Positions 24,919 through 32,078 of a stretch of 34,876 nt of DNA are shown piece by piece (position 1 is the first letter of the stretch; each line of letters begins with the position of its first letter). This stretch comes from Vicinamibacteraceae bacterium. GTDB lineage: Bacteria > Acidobacteriota > Vicinamibacteria > Vicinamibacterales > JAFNAJ01. The stretch is taken from NCBI GenBank assembly GCA_023384595.1, contig JAHDVQ010000016.1, positions 1 to 34,876 of the forward strand, in the 5' to 3' direction. A program made the position numbers and the translations under genes. The notes below the pieces were generated by a model. It did not search any database. It was not told where the DNA came from and worked only from the letters and a program-made list of their open reading frames with translations.

Positions 24919-25521
24919 TCAGAAGAAGCCGAGCTGCAGGCGCGCGACGTCGGACATCCGCTCGGGCGACCACGGCGGATCCCACACGATTTCGACGGCG
25001 GCCGCCTTCACGCCCGGCACGCGGCGCACCTTGTCCTGCACTTCGCCGGGCAGCTGCTGCGCCGCCGGGCAGGCGGGGCTCGTGAGGGTCATCTTGATCT
25101 GCACGCGAGCCTCGGCGTCGATGATCACATCGTAGATGAGGCCCAGCTCGTAGATGTTGACCGGAATCTCCGGGTCGAACACCGTCGACAGGGCCTCGAC
25201 GATCTGCGGCTTGAGCTCCAGGGTCTTGAGCGGGTCGCTGGCGAAGCCCGGCGCGGCCTGGGCGGGCGCCGGCGGCTCCGGCTTGAGCGCCTCGAAGTTC
25301 CAGGACCCGTCCCCAGGCTGGCCGCCCGACGCGTCGCCCGACGCGTCGCCTGCCGCACCGCCTGCCGCGCCGCCTTGCGTCGCCGCCTCCGCGGTGGCGA
25401 ACTCCGCCGCGGTGTCGGTCGTCGTGGTGTCCGGGGCGCGCTCCGACGCCGGGTCAGGCGTGGCCTCGCGCCGCTCGGTCTCGTCGCCGCCGCGCTGGCC
25501 GAGAAATGACAACCAGGACAT
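24919..25521 (-). CDS. sufT: MIP18/DUF59-family Fe-S assembly protein (SufT-like) with Ala/Gly/Asp-rich N-terminal extension
   Basis: KPQIVEALSTVFDPEIPVNIYELGLIYDVIIDAEARVQIKMTLTSPACPAAQQLPGEVQDKVRRVPGVKAAAVEIVWDPPWSPERMSDVARLQLGFF; located at the end of the suf operon. ATG at 25521. Confidence 0.82.
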   Translation of the reverse strand: MSWLSFLGQRGGDETERREATPDPASERAPDTTTTDTAAEFATAEAATQGGAAGGAAGDASGDASGGQPGDGSWNFEALKPEPPAPAQAAPGFASDPLKTLELKPQIVEALSTVFDPEIPVNIYELGLIYDVIIDAEARVQIKMTLTSPACPAAQQLPGEVQDKVRRVPGVKAAAVEIVWDPPWSPERMSDVARLQLGFF

Positions 25522-25562
25522 TGGGGGCGTCCTCCAGTTCGATGACGGGCGGCCGCGGCCGC

Positions 25563-26027
25563 CTACTGCGTTTCGCTCTCGGTCGACACCTCGGCGCCGG
25601 CGTGGTGCAGCGCGGCTTCGAGCGTGTGCCACGCGAGGCTCGCGCACTTCACGCGCGCGGGGAACTCGGCGACGCCGCTCAGCACGGCGAGCTTGCCGAG
25701 ACGATCGACGTCGACTTCGTGGCCCGCCTCGCCCGTTACCATCGCGTGCACGTCGGCGAACAACCGGTCGGCCTCCTCGATTGAACGGCCCTTCACGGCG
25801 TCGGTCATGAGCGAGGCCGACGCCTTCGAGATGGCGCAGCCCGACCCGTCGAAGCGGATGTCGGCGATGCGCCCGTCCTCGAGCCGCAGCGTGAGCGTGA
25901 GGCGGTCGCCGCAGAGCGGGTTGTGACCGTTGGCCTGATGCGTGGGGTGCTCGAGCCGTCCGAAGTTCCGCGGTCGCTTGTTGTGGTCGAGGATGACCTC
26001 CTGGTAGAGGTCGCGAAGCTCGGACAT
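25563..26027 (-). CDS. sufU: SufU-type Fe-S assembly protein / sulfur acceptor
   Basis: NPLCGDRLTLTL, GSGCAISKASASLMTDAV, insertion GRSIEEADRLFADVHAMVTGE, ARVKCASLAWHTLEAAL; next to sufS. Confidence 0.92.
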   Translation of the reverse strand: MSELRDLYQEVILDHNKRPRNFGRLEHPTHQANGHNPLCGDRLTLTLRLEDGRIADIRFDGSGCAISKASASLMTDAVKGRSIEEADRLFADVHAMVTGEAGHEVDVDRLGKLAVLSGVAEFPARVKCASLAWHTLEAALHHAGAEVSTESETQ

Positions 26028-26111: not shown

Positions 26112-27362
26112 TCAACCGAACAGCTCGCGGACGCGGCCGAGCGCGGCCACGAGGGCCTCGACCTCGTCGGTCGTGTTGTAAATGCCGAAAGAGGCGCGAA
26201 CCGTCGCAGGCACGCCGTAGCGGTCCATGACCGGCTGGGCGCAGTGCTGGCCGGTGCGCACCGCGACGCCCTCGGAGTCGAGGATGGTGCCGACGTCGTG
26301 CGGGTGCACCCCCTCGACGACGAACGAGACGACGCCAGCCTTGTGGGGCGCCCGCCCGATGATGCGGATGCCGTCCATCGCGTCGAGGCGGGCGGTGAGC
26401 GCCTCGACGAGCGAGCGCTCGTGGCGCGCGAGGGCGGCCATGTCGAATCGCTGCAGCCACTCGACGGCGGCGCCAAAGCCCACGACGCCCGCGATGTTCG
26501 GCGTGCCGGCCTCGAACTTGTACGGCACTTCGTTGTAGGTGGTGCGCTCGAAGGTGACCGACGCGATCATGTCACCGCCACCTTGCCAGGGCGGCATCTG
26601 CTCGAGGAGCGCCGCCTTGCCGTAGAGCGCGCCGATGCCCGTCGGGCCGTACAGCTTGTGCGCCGAGAACGCGTAGAAGTCGCAGTCGAGCGCCTGCACG
26701 TCGACGGCCAGGTGCGGCACGGCCTGCGCCCCGTCGACCAGAATCGGCACGCCCCGCTCGTGCGCCAGCCGGACCAGTTCCTCGACGGGGTTCACCGTGC
26801 CGAGCGCGTTCGAGACGTGGATGAGGCTCACGAACTTCACCGACGGCCCCGCGAGCGCGTCGCGGAAGTCGTCGAGGTCGAGTTCGCCCCGGTCGGTGAT
26901 GCGGACCGCGCGCACGCGGGCGCCCGTCTGCTCGCACACGAGCTGCCAGGGCACGATGTTCGAGTGGTGCTCCATCCAGGTGAGCACCACCTCGTCACCG
27001 GGCCGGAGGTTGGCGCGGCCCCACGACTGCGCGACGAGATTGATGGCTTCGGTGCAGCCGCGCGTGAACACCACCTCGCGCGACTCGCGCGCGTGAATGA
27101 GCCGCTGGACCCGCCGGCGCGCCCCCTCGTACGCCTGCGTCGCCCGCTCGCTCAGCAGATGCGTCGAGCGGTGGATGTTCGCGTTGATCGTCGCGTAGTA
27201 CGCCGATTCCGCGTCGATGACGGCCTGCGGCTTCTGGGTCGTGTTGGCGCTGTCGAGATACACGAGCGGCCGCCCGTGGATCTGCTGGGCCAGGATGGGG
27301 AACTCCGCACGGATCGCGGCGAGGTCGAGGCCGGGCGTCGAGGCGATGGGTGCGGAGTCCAC
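26112..27362 (-). CDS. sufS: Cysteine desulfurase SufS
   Basis: VDSAPIASTPGLDLAAIRAEFPILAQQIHGRPLVYLDSANTTQKPQAVIDA...SAHKLYGPTGIGALYGK (PLP Lys)...VRTGQHCAQPVMDRYGV (active Cys). GTG at 27362; the upstream extension in the track is antisense/out-of-frame to sufD. Confidence 0.94.
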   Translation of the reverse strand: MDSAPIASTPGLDLAAIRAEFPILAQQIHGRPLVYLDSANTTQKPQAVIDAESAYYATINANIHRSTHLLSERATQAYEGARRRVQRLIHARESREVVFTRGCTEAINLVAQSWGRANLRPGDEVVLTWMEHHSNIVPWQLVCEQTGARVRAVRITDRGELDLDDFRDALAGPSVKFVSLIHVSNALGTVNPVEELVRLAHERGVPILVDGAQAVPHLAVDVQALDCDFYAFSAHKLYGPTGIGALYGKAALLEQMPPWQGGGDMIASVTFERTTYNEVPYKFEAGTPNIAGVVGFGAAVEWLQRFDMAALARHERSLVEALTARLDAMDGIRIIGRAPHKAGVVSFVVEGVHPHDVGTILDSEGVAVRTGQHCAQPVMDRYGVPATVRASFGIYNTTDEVEALVAALGRVRELFG

Positions 27363-27370
27363 TGTCGGAA

Positions 27371-28687
27371 TCAGGCGACGAGGTCCTTGGGCAGCTGCTC
27401 GAGCAGCGTGTCTTCGAGGGCGGCCCTCAGCGGCTCGATGGTCACCCGGTCGATGACGTCGCTGGCGAAGGCGTGCACGAGCATCGCCCGGGCCTCGGCC
27501 GCGCCGATGCCGCGCGCGCGCAGGTAGAAGAGCGACTCGGCGTCGAGCTGGCCGACCGTCGCCCCGTGCGTGCACTTCACGTCGTCGGCGAAGATCTCGA
27601 GCTGCGGCTTCGTGTTGATCGTGGCGTCGTCGGAGAGCAGCAGGACCTTGTTGGTCTGCTTGGCGTCGGTCTTCTGCGCGTCGGGCCGTACGAAGATCTT
27701 GCCGTTGAACACGCCCTTCGAATGGCCGTCGAGCATCCCCTTGTAGATCTCGTGGCTCTCGCAGTGCGGCTTGGCATGCACGATGGCCGTGTGATTGTCG
27801 ATGAGCCGCCGGTCGTGTCCGAGGTACAGGCCGTTCAGCGTGCACGCGATGCCCTCGGCGTCGAGCAACGCGTTGACGTCGTTGCGGGCGAGGGCGCCGC
27901 CGAAGGTGAAGCTCTGCTGGGCGAAGACGGCCGCCTTCTCGAGGTAGATGTGGGTGCTCGAGATGTGCGTCGCGGCCATGCTCTCGCGCTGCACGCGATA
28001 GTGCTCGGTGTGCGAGTGCTCGCCGACGACGAACTCGGTCACCGCGTTGGTGAAGTAGGCGGCCCCGGGCCGGCCCGCGTAGCTCTCGATGAGCGTCAGG
28101 CTGCTGCGGTCGCCGACGACCACGATGGTGCGCGGGTGGGTCGCCGCCGGGGCGTCGGTGGTCGTGTAGTAGAGCACGTGCACGGGGTCGGCGATGGAGA
28201 CGCCCGACGGGATGTAGAGGAACCCGCCGTCCCCGGTGAACGCGGTGTTGAGGGCGCAGAAGGCGTGCGCGTCGAAGGCCGCGCACTTCGAGAAGTACGG
28301 ATCGACCAGCCCCGGATCGCTCGCGAGCACCTCGCCGAGCGAACCGATGATGACGCCCTTCGGCAGCGAGCGCGCGCTCGAGAGCGCGGGCGCGAACCGG
28401 CCGTTCACGAAGACGAGCAGCGTCGCCGAGAGCTGGCGGACGAGGAACGGAGCGAGGTCCGCCTGAGCGACCTCGGCCGCCGGCGCCTCGCCAAACGCCT
28501 GATCGGCGAGCGCGGTGACGTTGGTGAACCGCCACTCCTCGTCACGCGTCGTGGGGATGCCCAGGCGCGTGAACGCGTCCATGGCCGACCGGCGGGTGCC
28601 GGCGAGCCACGAGGGTTCCGAGGCGCGGCGGGCGGAGAGCTCTTCGAACTGCGCGGCGTAGGACGCCTGCGCGGAAGCCACGGCCAT
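27371..28687 (-). CDS. sufD: Fe-S cluster assembly protein SufD
   Basis: SufBD core: VGDRSSLTLIESYAG, HTEHYRVQRES, LYLGHDRRLIDNHTAIVHAKPHCESHEIYKGMLDGHSKGVFNGKIFVRPDAQKTDAKQTNKVLLLSDDATINTKPQLEIFADDVKCTHGATVGQLD. Confidence 0.95.
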   Translation of the reverse strand: MAVASAQASYAAQFEELSARRASEPSWLAGTRRSAMDAFTRLGIPTTRDEEWRFTNVTALADQAFGEAPAAEVAQADLAPFLVRQLSATLLVFVNGRFAPALSSARSLPKGVIIGSLGEVLASDPGLVDPYFSKCAAFDAHAFCALNTAFTGDGGFLYIPSGVSIADPVHVLYYTTTDAPAATHPRTIVVVGDRSSLTLIESYAGRPGAAYFTNAVTEFVVGEHSHTEHYRVQRESMAATHISSTHIYLEKAAVFAQQSFTFGGALARNDVNALLDAEGIACTLNGLYLGHDRRLIDNHTAIVHAKPHCESHEIYKGMLDGHSKGVFNGKIFVRPDAQKTDAKQTNKVLLLSDDATINTKPQLEIFADDVKCTHGATVGQLDAESLFYLRARGIGAAEARAMLVHAFASDVIDRVTIEPLRAALEDTLLEQLPKDLVA

Positions 28688-28700
28688 GTCTGAATGCCTC

Positions 28701-29462
<762 letters not shown>

Positions 29463-29504: not shown

Positions 29505-30947
<1,443 letters not shown>

Positions 30948-31064
30948 GGTGCTCCTACGGATCGGCCTCGATGGGCCCCATTCCGTGCCGGCGGTGCGGC
31001 GGGCTCGGCGGCCAGGCCCGAAGCGGCGCAGGTATCCACCTGCGGCGCCGGGCCCGGTGCTAAC

Positions 31065-31081
31065 CCGACCAAACTGGTCGG
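31065..31081. promoter_or_regulatory. Perfect 7-3-7 palindrome, candidate repressor operator for the suf operon (Rrf2/IscR-like in form)
   Basis: CCGACCA-aac-TGGTCGG, abutting the predicted transcription start of the promoter at 31088-31116 (minus). Confidence 0.65.
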
Positions 31082-31087
31082 TATTCC

Positions 31088-31116
31088 AATATACGACCTC
31101 TGGAGTCGGAGATCAA
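31088..31116 (-). promoter_or_regulatory. Sigma70-like promoter for sufB operon
   Basis: Minus strand reads TTGATC (31116-31111), 17-nt spacer, TATATT (31093-31088). Confidence 0.6.
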
Positions 31117-31122
31117 CCGGAG

Positions 31123-31164
31123 CCGGGCTACCCGAAGAGCTAGGACCGGGCTACCCGAAGAGCT
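31123..31164. repeat. 19-bp direct repeat with 23-bp period at the 3' end of the LysR gene
   Basis: CCGGGCTACCCGAAGAGCT at 31123-31141 and again at 31146-31164. Confidence 0.9.
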
Positions 31165-32050
31165 TCGACCGGGCGGCCTCGGAGATGGCGACGACCGCGG
31201 GGTGCCGGAGCTTCTTCTCGACCGAGATCGCGAAGTACCGTTCCTTGATCTCGTCGGTGCGGCCCACGAGCGCCACGTCGTGCTGCCGCACGATGTCCTT
31301 CTCGACCACCAACGGCCCGGGGAAGAGGGTGCCGCTGCCTTCGCCGAAGACCTTCATCAGGGCGCTGTCCTCGAACTCCCCGACGATGTGGGGGCGGATG
31401 CCGTGGGTGTCGAACCACTGGTCGATGGCGCGGCGCAGCGCCGTGTTGCTCGTCGGCAGCAGCAGCGGGGCCTCGCCGAGACTCTCCGGGAACCGGCGCC
31501 GCAGGCGGGCGGCGGCCGCCTTGCCGGCGAACCAGCCGATGCCGCTCTCGCCGAGCACGTGGTTGAAGGCCTTGACGCTCGTGCCCGGCGGCATGGGCGT
31601 GTCGGCGAGCACCAGGTCGAGCTCGTGGATCGAGAGTTCGGCCAGGAGACGCTCGGTCTTGTCCTCGCGGCAAATGAGGTGCACGGGCACGTCCAGGGCC
31701 TGGGCGGGCTCGAGCAGACGCCGTACCACGAACTTGGGGAGGACGTCGGCGACGCCCACCACGAGCCGGAACGGCCGGCCCGTCGGCCTGTCGTTCAGCG
31801 TGTTCAGCAGCTCGCGGCCGAGGGCGAAGATGTCGTCGGCATAGCGGTAGACGAGCCGGCCGACCTCGGTGAGCACCAGCCCGCGCCCCTCGCGCTGGAA
31901 GAGCTGCTCGCCCAGGGCCTGCTCGAGCGCCTTGATCTGGCCGCTGATGGTCGGCTGCGTCAGGTTGAGCTCGGCGGCCGCCTTCACGACGCTCCCCTCG
32001 CGGGCGACCATCCAGAAGTAGAGCAGGTGGTGGTAGTTCAGCCACTGCAT
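31151..32050 (-). CDS. nhaR: LysR-family transcriptional regulator, NhaR-like
   Basis: MQWLNYHHLLYFWMVAREGSVVKAAAELNLTQPTISGQIKALEQALGEQLFQREGRGLVLTEVGRLVYRYADDIF. ATG at 32050 preceded by GGAGGGG on the minus strand; the track start at 32074 is a TTG. Confidence 0.87.
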   Translation of the reverse strand: MQWLNYHHLLYFWMVAREGSVVKAAAELNLTQPTISGQIKALEQALGEQLFQREGRGLVLTEVGRLVYRYADDIFALGRELLNTLNDRPTGRPFRLVVGVADVLPKFVVRRLLEPAQALDVPVHLICREDKTERLLAELSIHELDLVLADTPMPPGTSVKAFNHVLGESGIGWFAGKAAAARLRRRFPESLGEAPLLLPTSNTALRRAIDQWFDTHGIRPHIVGEFEDSALMKVFGEGSGTLFPGPLVVEKDIVRQHDVALVGRTDEIKERYFAISVEKKLRHPAVVAISEAARSKLFG

Positions 32051-32065
32051 GCGTACCCCTCCGTA

Positions 32066-32078
32066 TCGACTCAAACGA
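32066..32078. promoter_or_regulatory. LysR-type T-N11-A box with TCG/CGA dyad
   Basis: TCGACTCAAACGA in the divergent regulator/terC intergenic region; the ATCGACT half is repeated 31 bp away at 32096-32102. Confidence 0.4.

Follow-up and report, generated by a model that had tools for sequence, protein, structure and literature searches.

Predicted tandem operators for a trans-encoded Rrf2-type repressor at the sufBCDSUT promoter of a Vicinamibacteraceae bacterium

The promoter of the sufBCDSUT operon in a Vicinamibacteraceae genome carries two tandem sites with a GAC-N7-GTC core, which we regard as candidate operators for a trans-encoded, Fe-S-sensing Rrf2 repressor (gene on contig C194) that would belong to a regulon joining suf and iron uptake; we give this reading a probability of about 0.83. 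Control of this kind is known from IscR, RisR and RirA, and the example described here is a predicted but well-supported one. No published or experimental work on the Vicinamibacterales regulator was found in the literature searched. Placement of the genome in Vicinamibacterales (Acidobacteriota) agrees with the named neighbours of its SufB protein and with a named Vicinamibacteria contig coinciding with one order-mate locus. Coordinates given without a contig refer to the window, that is, the whole stretch of 34,876 nucleotides that was analysed.

Results

The suf promoter was read from the minus strand as TTGATC (31116-31111), a 17-nt spacer and TATATT (31093-31088). A promoter scan of positions 30900-31300 returned exactly one promoter, the same TTGATC-N17-TATATT (31088-31116), compared to a mean of 0.0 in shuffled sequences; it is predicted to be of the sigma-70 type, and its TATATT is retained in relatives. 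The first gene 3´ of this promoter is sufB (29505-30947, minus strand; Pfam SUFBD_core, 8e-79), followed on the same strand by sufC (28701-29462; TIGR01978 above cut-off), sufD (27371-28687; SUFBD_core, 3.4e-84), the cysteine desulfurase gene sufS (26112-27371, start codon not fixed; TIGR01979 above cut-off), sufU (25563-26027; TIGR01994 above cut-off) and a sufT-like gene (24919-25647; TIGR02945 above cut-off), in which the domain corresponds to the last ~98 residues of the ORF. A LysR-type gene (31151-32074) lies upstream of the suf promoter, and its end is duplicated beside the promoter as a 19-bp direct repeat, AGCTCTTCGGGTAGCCCGG, at 31123-31141 and 31146-31164.

Two further elements were seen in the sufB leader. 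A short block, GGAATGGGGCCCATCGAGGCCGATCCGTAGGAG (30950-30986, minus strand), lies directly 5´ of the ribosome-binding site and is kept in family-f4 genomes (L089, L090, L091, L100) as well as in G003; it may function as a structured leader or in translation, and an Rfam search gave no match to it. At 31023-31050 there is an imperfect inverted repeat, CGGCGCCGCAGGT-GGAT-ACCTGCGCCGC, which was not seen among the relatives in the leader alignment.

Beginning 6 nt past the -10 hexamer is the perfect 7-3-7 palindrome CCGACCAGTTTGGTCGG (31081-31065, minus strand). Both the palindrome and the promoter (31116-31088) had been named in the original prediction and are indeed present; a second site which that prediction had overlooked, GACTCCAGAGGTC (31107-31095), is situated entirely within the -35/-10 spacer, upstream of the palindrome at a distance of 28 bp, centre to centre. 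With their flanks, the two sites define candidate operator A (TGATCTCCGACTCCAGAGGTCGTATATTG, 31087-31115, minus strand; core GAC-N7-GTC at 31107-31095), which fills the spacer and overlaps the -10, and candidate operator B (GGAATACCGACCAGTTTGGTCGGGTTAGC, 31059-31087, minus strand), which comprises the palindrome and whose palindromic part would span about +1 to +17.

The window was scanned with a symmetric weight matrix of 29 positions, whose training set comprised 20 related sites, all of them preceding rrf2 genes in 20 genomes from other families. Over the 34.9 kb, operator A was the best match with 32.8 bits, followed by operator B with 8.4 bits, the third-best match reaching 2.1. Since the matrix was trained on the rrf2 sites of other families, this makes A a strong site independently. 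Maxima in shuffled windows ranged from 1 to 10.5 bits, and the value of operator B falls inside that range. Operator B is weak by score, and its candidacy rests on its position, on a sequence that is near-unique in the genome (CCGACC-N5-GGTCGG occurs at only 2 places in 4.83 Mb) and on the recurrence of tandem sites in relatives. The rarity of the palindrome was rejected as evidence because 7-3-7 palindromes are common in a window of 70% G+C, where eight perfect ones were observed vs. a shuffle mean of 5.9. Position and conservation speak for the palindrome as a repressor site, as originally proposed, but of the two tandem sites it is the weaker, and the imperfect site between the -35 and the -10, rather than the perfect palindrome, is predicted to be the main operator.

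It is conservation upstream of sufB that gives the palindrome observation its significance. Among 30 sufB loci from this and related genomes of the order, 18 carry GACY-N5-RGTC in the 250 nt preceding sufB, compared to 0.65 expected from shuffles (maximum, 4), in agreement with the original prediction. With the rrf2-trained matrix, sites upstream of sufB or sufA-sufB were detected in 20 of the 30 loci (7.7–35.5 bits; background maximum, 2.1 per 450 bp), and in most of the remaining ones sufB comes after sufA and rrf2, with the site preceding rrf2. The pattern TDATNNNSGACYN5RGTCSK gave 53 rows in 40 genomes vs. 9 for a reversed control; a site that is symmetric may be counted twice here, once per strand. 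The order-mate genomes are not independent samples.

Operator A is kept in the family mates G001 (30.8 bits) and G003 (35.5 bits). A second site equivalent to B was observed in G003, with 15.8 bits, and with 6.5–8.1 bits also in G023, G033 and G038, while the matrix scan revealed none in G001, which has only A. The two sites are 36 bp apart in G003, 32 bp apart in G023, G033 and G038, and 34 bp apart upstream of rrf2 in locus L008; the tandem-operator layout recurs, at spacings of 28–36 bp. In distant phyla, sites directly upstream of sufB are rare (3 of 79). In many of those loci rrf2 heads the operon and the site stands in front of rrf2, and the rrf2-suf loci of several other phyla show sites similar to GAC-N7-GTC. 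Co-occurrence of rrf2 and the motif was dropped as a test, since with rrf2 present in almost every genome of the order it carries no information.

The existence of an Rrf2 homologue, presumed in the original prediction, was confirmed: the genome carries three rrf2 genes (contigs C194, C162 and C115), and one of the products has Fe-S-type cysteines. This is the C194 protein, whose gene (C194:14465-14953, minus strand) is flanked by a ThiS-ThiF-rhodanese gene on one side and an iscS-like gene on the other. As its gene sits on a different contig from suf, the regulator would act in trans, in line with what had been anticipated. In this genome rrf2 is not linked to suf; rrf2-sufA-sufB linkage was observed in G004, G005, G011, G012, G014, G022, G032 and G035. 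An orthologue of the C194 protein was recovered from 37 of 39 relatives, the two exceptions being G013, a draft genome with a weak Rrf2 match only, and G017, with none, in which the suf contig ends where rrf2 is expected. Every orthologue recovered retains the three cysteines C93, C100 and C106, which lie towards the C-terminal end of the domain.

The C194 protein scored above the curated cut-off of TIGR02944 (suf_reg_Xantho, SUF regulator), if only slightly (113.2 vs. 110.65 bits); this model is named in no paper found in the literature searched. Scores were far below the cut-offs of the models for IscR (TIGR02010; 78.2 vs. 207.55), RirA (NF008886; 54.5 vs. 193), NsrR and CymR. In a phylogenetic tree, the protein grouped with its order mates, at a distance from both paralogues and E. 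coli IscR. It fell closer to the RisR side of Myxococcus than to IscR of E. coli, but in a separate group joined at weakly supported forks. These results support Rrf2-family control by an Fe-S sensor, as first suggested. The putative regulator is of the TIGR02944 type rather than an orthologue of IscR, and it appears closer to RisR of M. xanthus.

Site and regulator are connected by gene neighbourhood. At least 20 related genomes have the GAC-N7-GTC motif immediately 5´ of their rrf2 orthologue, an arrangement that is the usual mark of autoregulation, and several relatives show the gene order site-rrf2-sufA-sufB. In the present genome, a relaxed palindrome, TATAAT-TCCGACTGTTTCTGTCGGAGAT (C194:16649-16673, 18.8 bits), heads the ThiS-ThiF-rhodanese/rrf2/iscS operon, with a TonB-dependent receptor gene diverging on the other side; the family mates G002 and G003 have an equivalent site. 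The regulator's site persists at suf even where its gene is unlinked to suf.

In genome-wide searches, the strict patterns CCGACC-N5-GGTCGG, MSGACYN3WN2RGTCSK and TN3GACN7GTCSKWNW returned mostly noise, near control level, and missed the rrf2-iscS site on C194; MSGACYN3WN2RGTCSK is one base longer between the half-sites than A and B, and hence missed both. Signal separated from control only with the AT-flanked pattern WWNNNSGACN7GTCSNNNWW, which gave 8 sites vs. 1 for its reversed form. Four of these exceeded 3.3 bits, namely sufB A, sufB B, the divergent rrf2-iscS/TonB-receptor region and feoAB; the other four scored 3.3 bits or less. The feoAB site (C111:2600-2624, 24.4 bits) is about 39 nt upstream of feoA-feoB, and an equivalent is present in 7 of the 9 loci with a recognisable feoA in this and related genomes (4.0–30.4 bits). 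Elsewhere in the order, sites precede genes for cysteine synthase, the FTR1 iron permease, PepSY-TM proteins and TonB receptors, and about a dozen more pattern matches have no obvious link to iron. FTR1 was rejected as a target in the present genome, in which no FTR1 gene was found.

An alternative is that one of the Rrf2 paralogues (C162 or C115, C-x7-C-x5-C) is the main protein binding these sites, in response to NO, redox state or another signal. Both paralogues are encoded in the genome, with three cysteines each. The C115 paralogue is closely preceded by a partial operator of 15 bits (C115, near 35518-35546; L119:9827), in which ATATCCGACC makes up one half-site; this suggests that motif specificity may overlap among paralogues. 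However, both proteins are remote from that of C194 and reach the cut-off of no Fe-S regulator model, the motif is found upstream of the C194-type gene, and beside the widely kept C194 orthologue the other Rrf2 matches in relatives are sporadic and weak, all of which makes control by a paralogue distinctly unlikely.

Discussion

For the C194 Rrf2 protein as the suf repressor, we infer DNA binding, cluster ligation and sensing, the sign of regulation and the signal by analogy with M. xanthus RisR, whose cluster-bound (holo) form represses both suf and isc (PMC9973013). When iron and clusters are sufficient, a cluster-bound Rrf2 dimer would bind A, and B as a second site; on A it would block RNA polymerase between the -35 and the -10, and B would be occupied at the predicted start site. 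Upon iron limitation or exposure to oxidants, cluster loss would cause Rrf2 to release the DNA, leading to induction of suf, of its own iscS operon, of feoAB and of a TonB receptor. Both the position of the sites and homology support the repression mechanism proposed.

RisR belongs to the Rrf2 IS6 group, which is reported to include Acidobacteria, and its footprint, T(t/g)GAC-N7-GTCC(t/a), overlaps the -35/-10 of suf and the -10 of isc (PMC9973013); in the Myxococcus suf locus (L040), we found a RisR-type site upstream of the risR homologue. The two systems share a GAC-N7-GTC palindrome overlapping the -35/-10 of a sufBCDSUT operon and a three-cysteine Rrf2 protein. They differ in that risR heads the suf operon in M. 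xanthus, whereas the gene described here lies elsewhere, with iscS; in the cysteine spacing (C-x9-C-x5-C vs. C-x6-C-x5-C here); in the flanks of the core matched by A and B (GGAC/GTCC vs. CGAC/GTCG here); and in the two tandem sites and predicted feoAB and TonB-receptor targets found here. The likeness to E. coli IscR extends to the Rrf2 fold, the three cysteines, the type 1 half-site GAC(T) with 5-nt spacing and the position next to iscS, but the C194 protein is not its orthologue (~30% identity, distant in the tree, 78 bits vs. 207). Further, at suf the E. coli protein is an activator, working through type 2 sites (PMC9973013).

Alternatively, the palindrome could act as RNA, i.e., as a stem-loop at the 5´ end of the suf mRNA, protecting the transcript or regulating it, without a DNA-binding role. 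Operator B would give a 7-bp stem at the extreme 5´ end (-11.4 kcal/mol; -10.7 in G003), but the second site of G023, G033, G038 and G013 keeps the GAC-N7-GTC core with a stem of only 4–5 bp (-2.8 to -5.3). Moreover, site A lies upstream of the predicted start and therefore cannot be part of the transcript, the motif is seen again and again at different distances from promoters, and an Rfam search for an RNA element yielded no match. We consider a purely RNA-level function highly improbable.

Joint control of suf and iron uptake by the C194 Rrf2 protein would have precedents in RirA and in the IscR of Rhodobacter and other Rhodobacteraceae (Iron-Rhodo-box), Rrf2 proteins acting on Fe-S assembly together with feoAB and TonB receptors (PMC4618611). 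Those regulators come from another phylum, the C194 protein scores far below the RirA model, and Fur is also present here. Although two Fur-family genes in this genome, their presence in 39 of the 40 genomes searched and targets typical of Fur (feoAB, TonB receptors, FTR1) might point to a general iron regulator such as Fur, there is very little chance that the sites belong to one, as the motif is unlike Fur boxes, which are AT-rich GATAAT repeats, shares its half-site and spacing with the RisR site and with the IscR type 1 core, and precedes rrf2 genes in several phyla.

For iron and Fe-S homeostasis in Vicinamibacterales, the candidate operators and the C194 protein provide an operator/regulator pair that can be tested, along with a predicted regulon. 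They also suggest that Acidobacteriota, as is known from alphaproteobacteria, place iron uptake under Rrf2 control along with Fe-S assembly. More tentatively, and at somewhat less than even odds, the TIGR02944-type Rrf2 protein of Vicinamibacterales may be a broad iron and Fe-S regulator that reached a RirA-like regulon independently and works beside Fur through one GAC-N7-GTC operator. That regulon would take in suf, iscS, sulfur-carrier-dependent cysteine synthesis (cysteine synthase, ThiS-ThiF-rhodanese), feoAB, FTR1, PepSY-TM and TonB receptors.

Some minor observations were made on individual loci of the order. In L142, L153, L201, L236 and L237, a cysteine synthase gene located a few kb away from rrf2 and iscS has the motif in front of it, a hint that cysteine synthesis and Fe-S assembly may be controlled together. 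Three relatives (L199, L200, L208) have the motif between the FTR1 iron permease gene and a divergent gene, which in L199 encodes a VWA-domain protein. Finally, two contigs of G033 (L202, L203) hold near-copies of a motif-bearing region, one of them beside a TetR-type gene, possibly as part of a repeat or mobile element.
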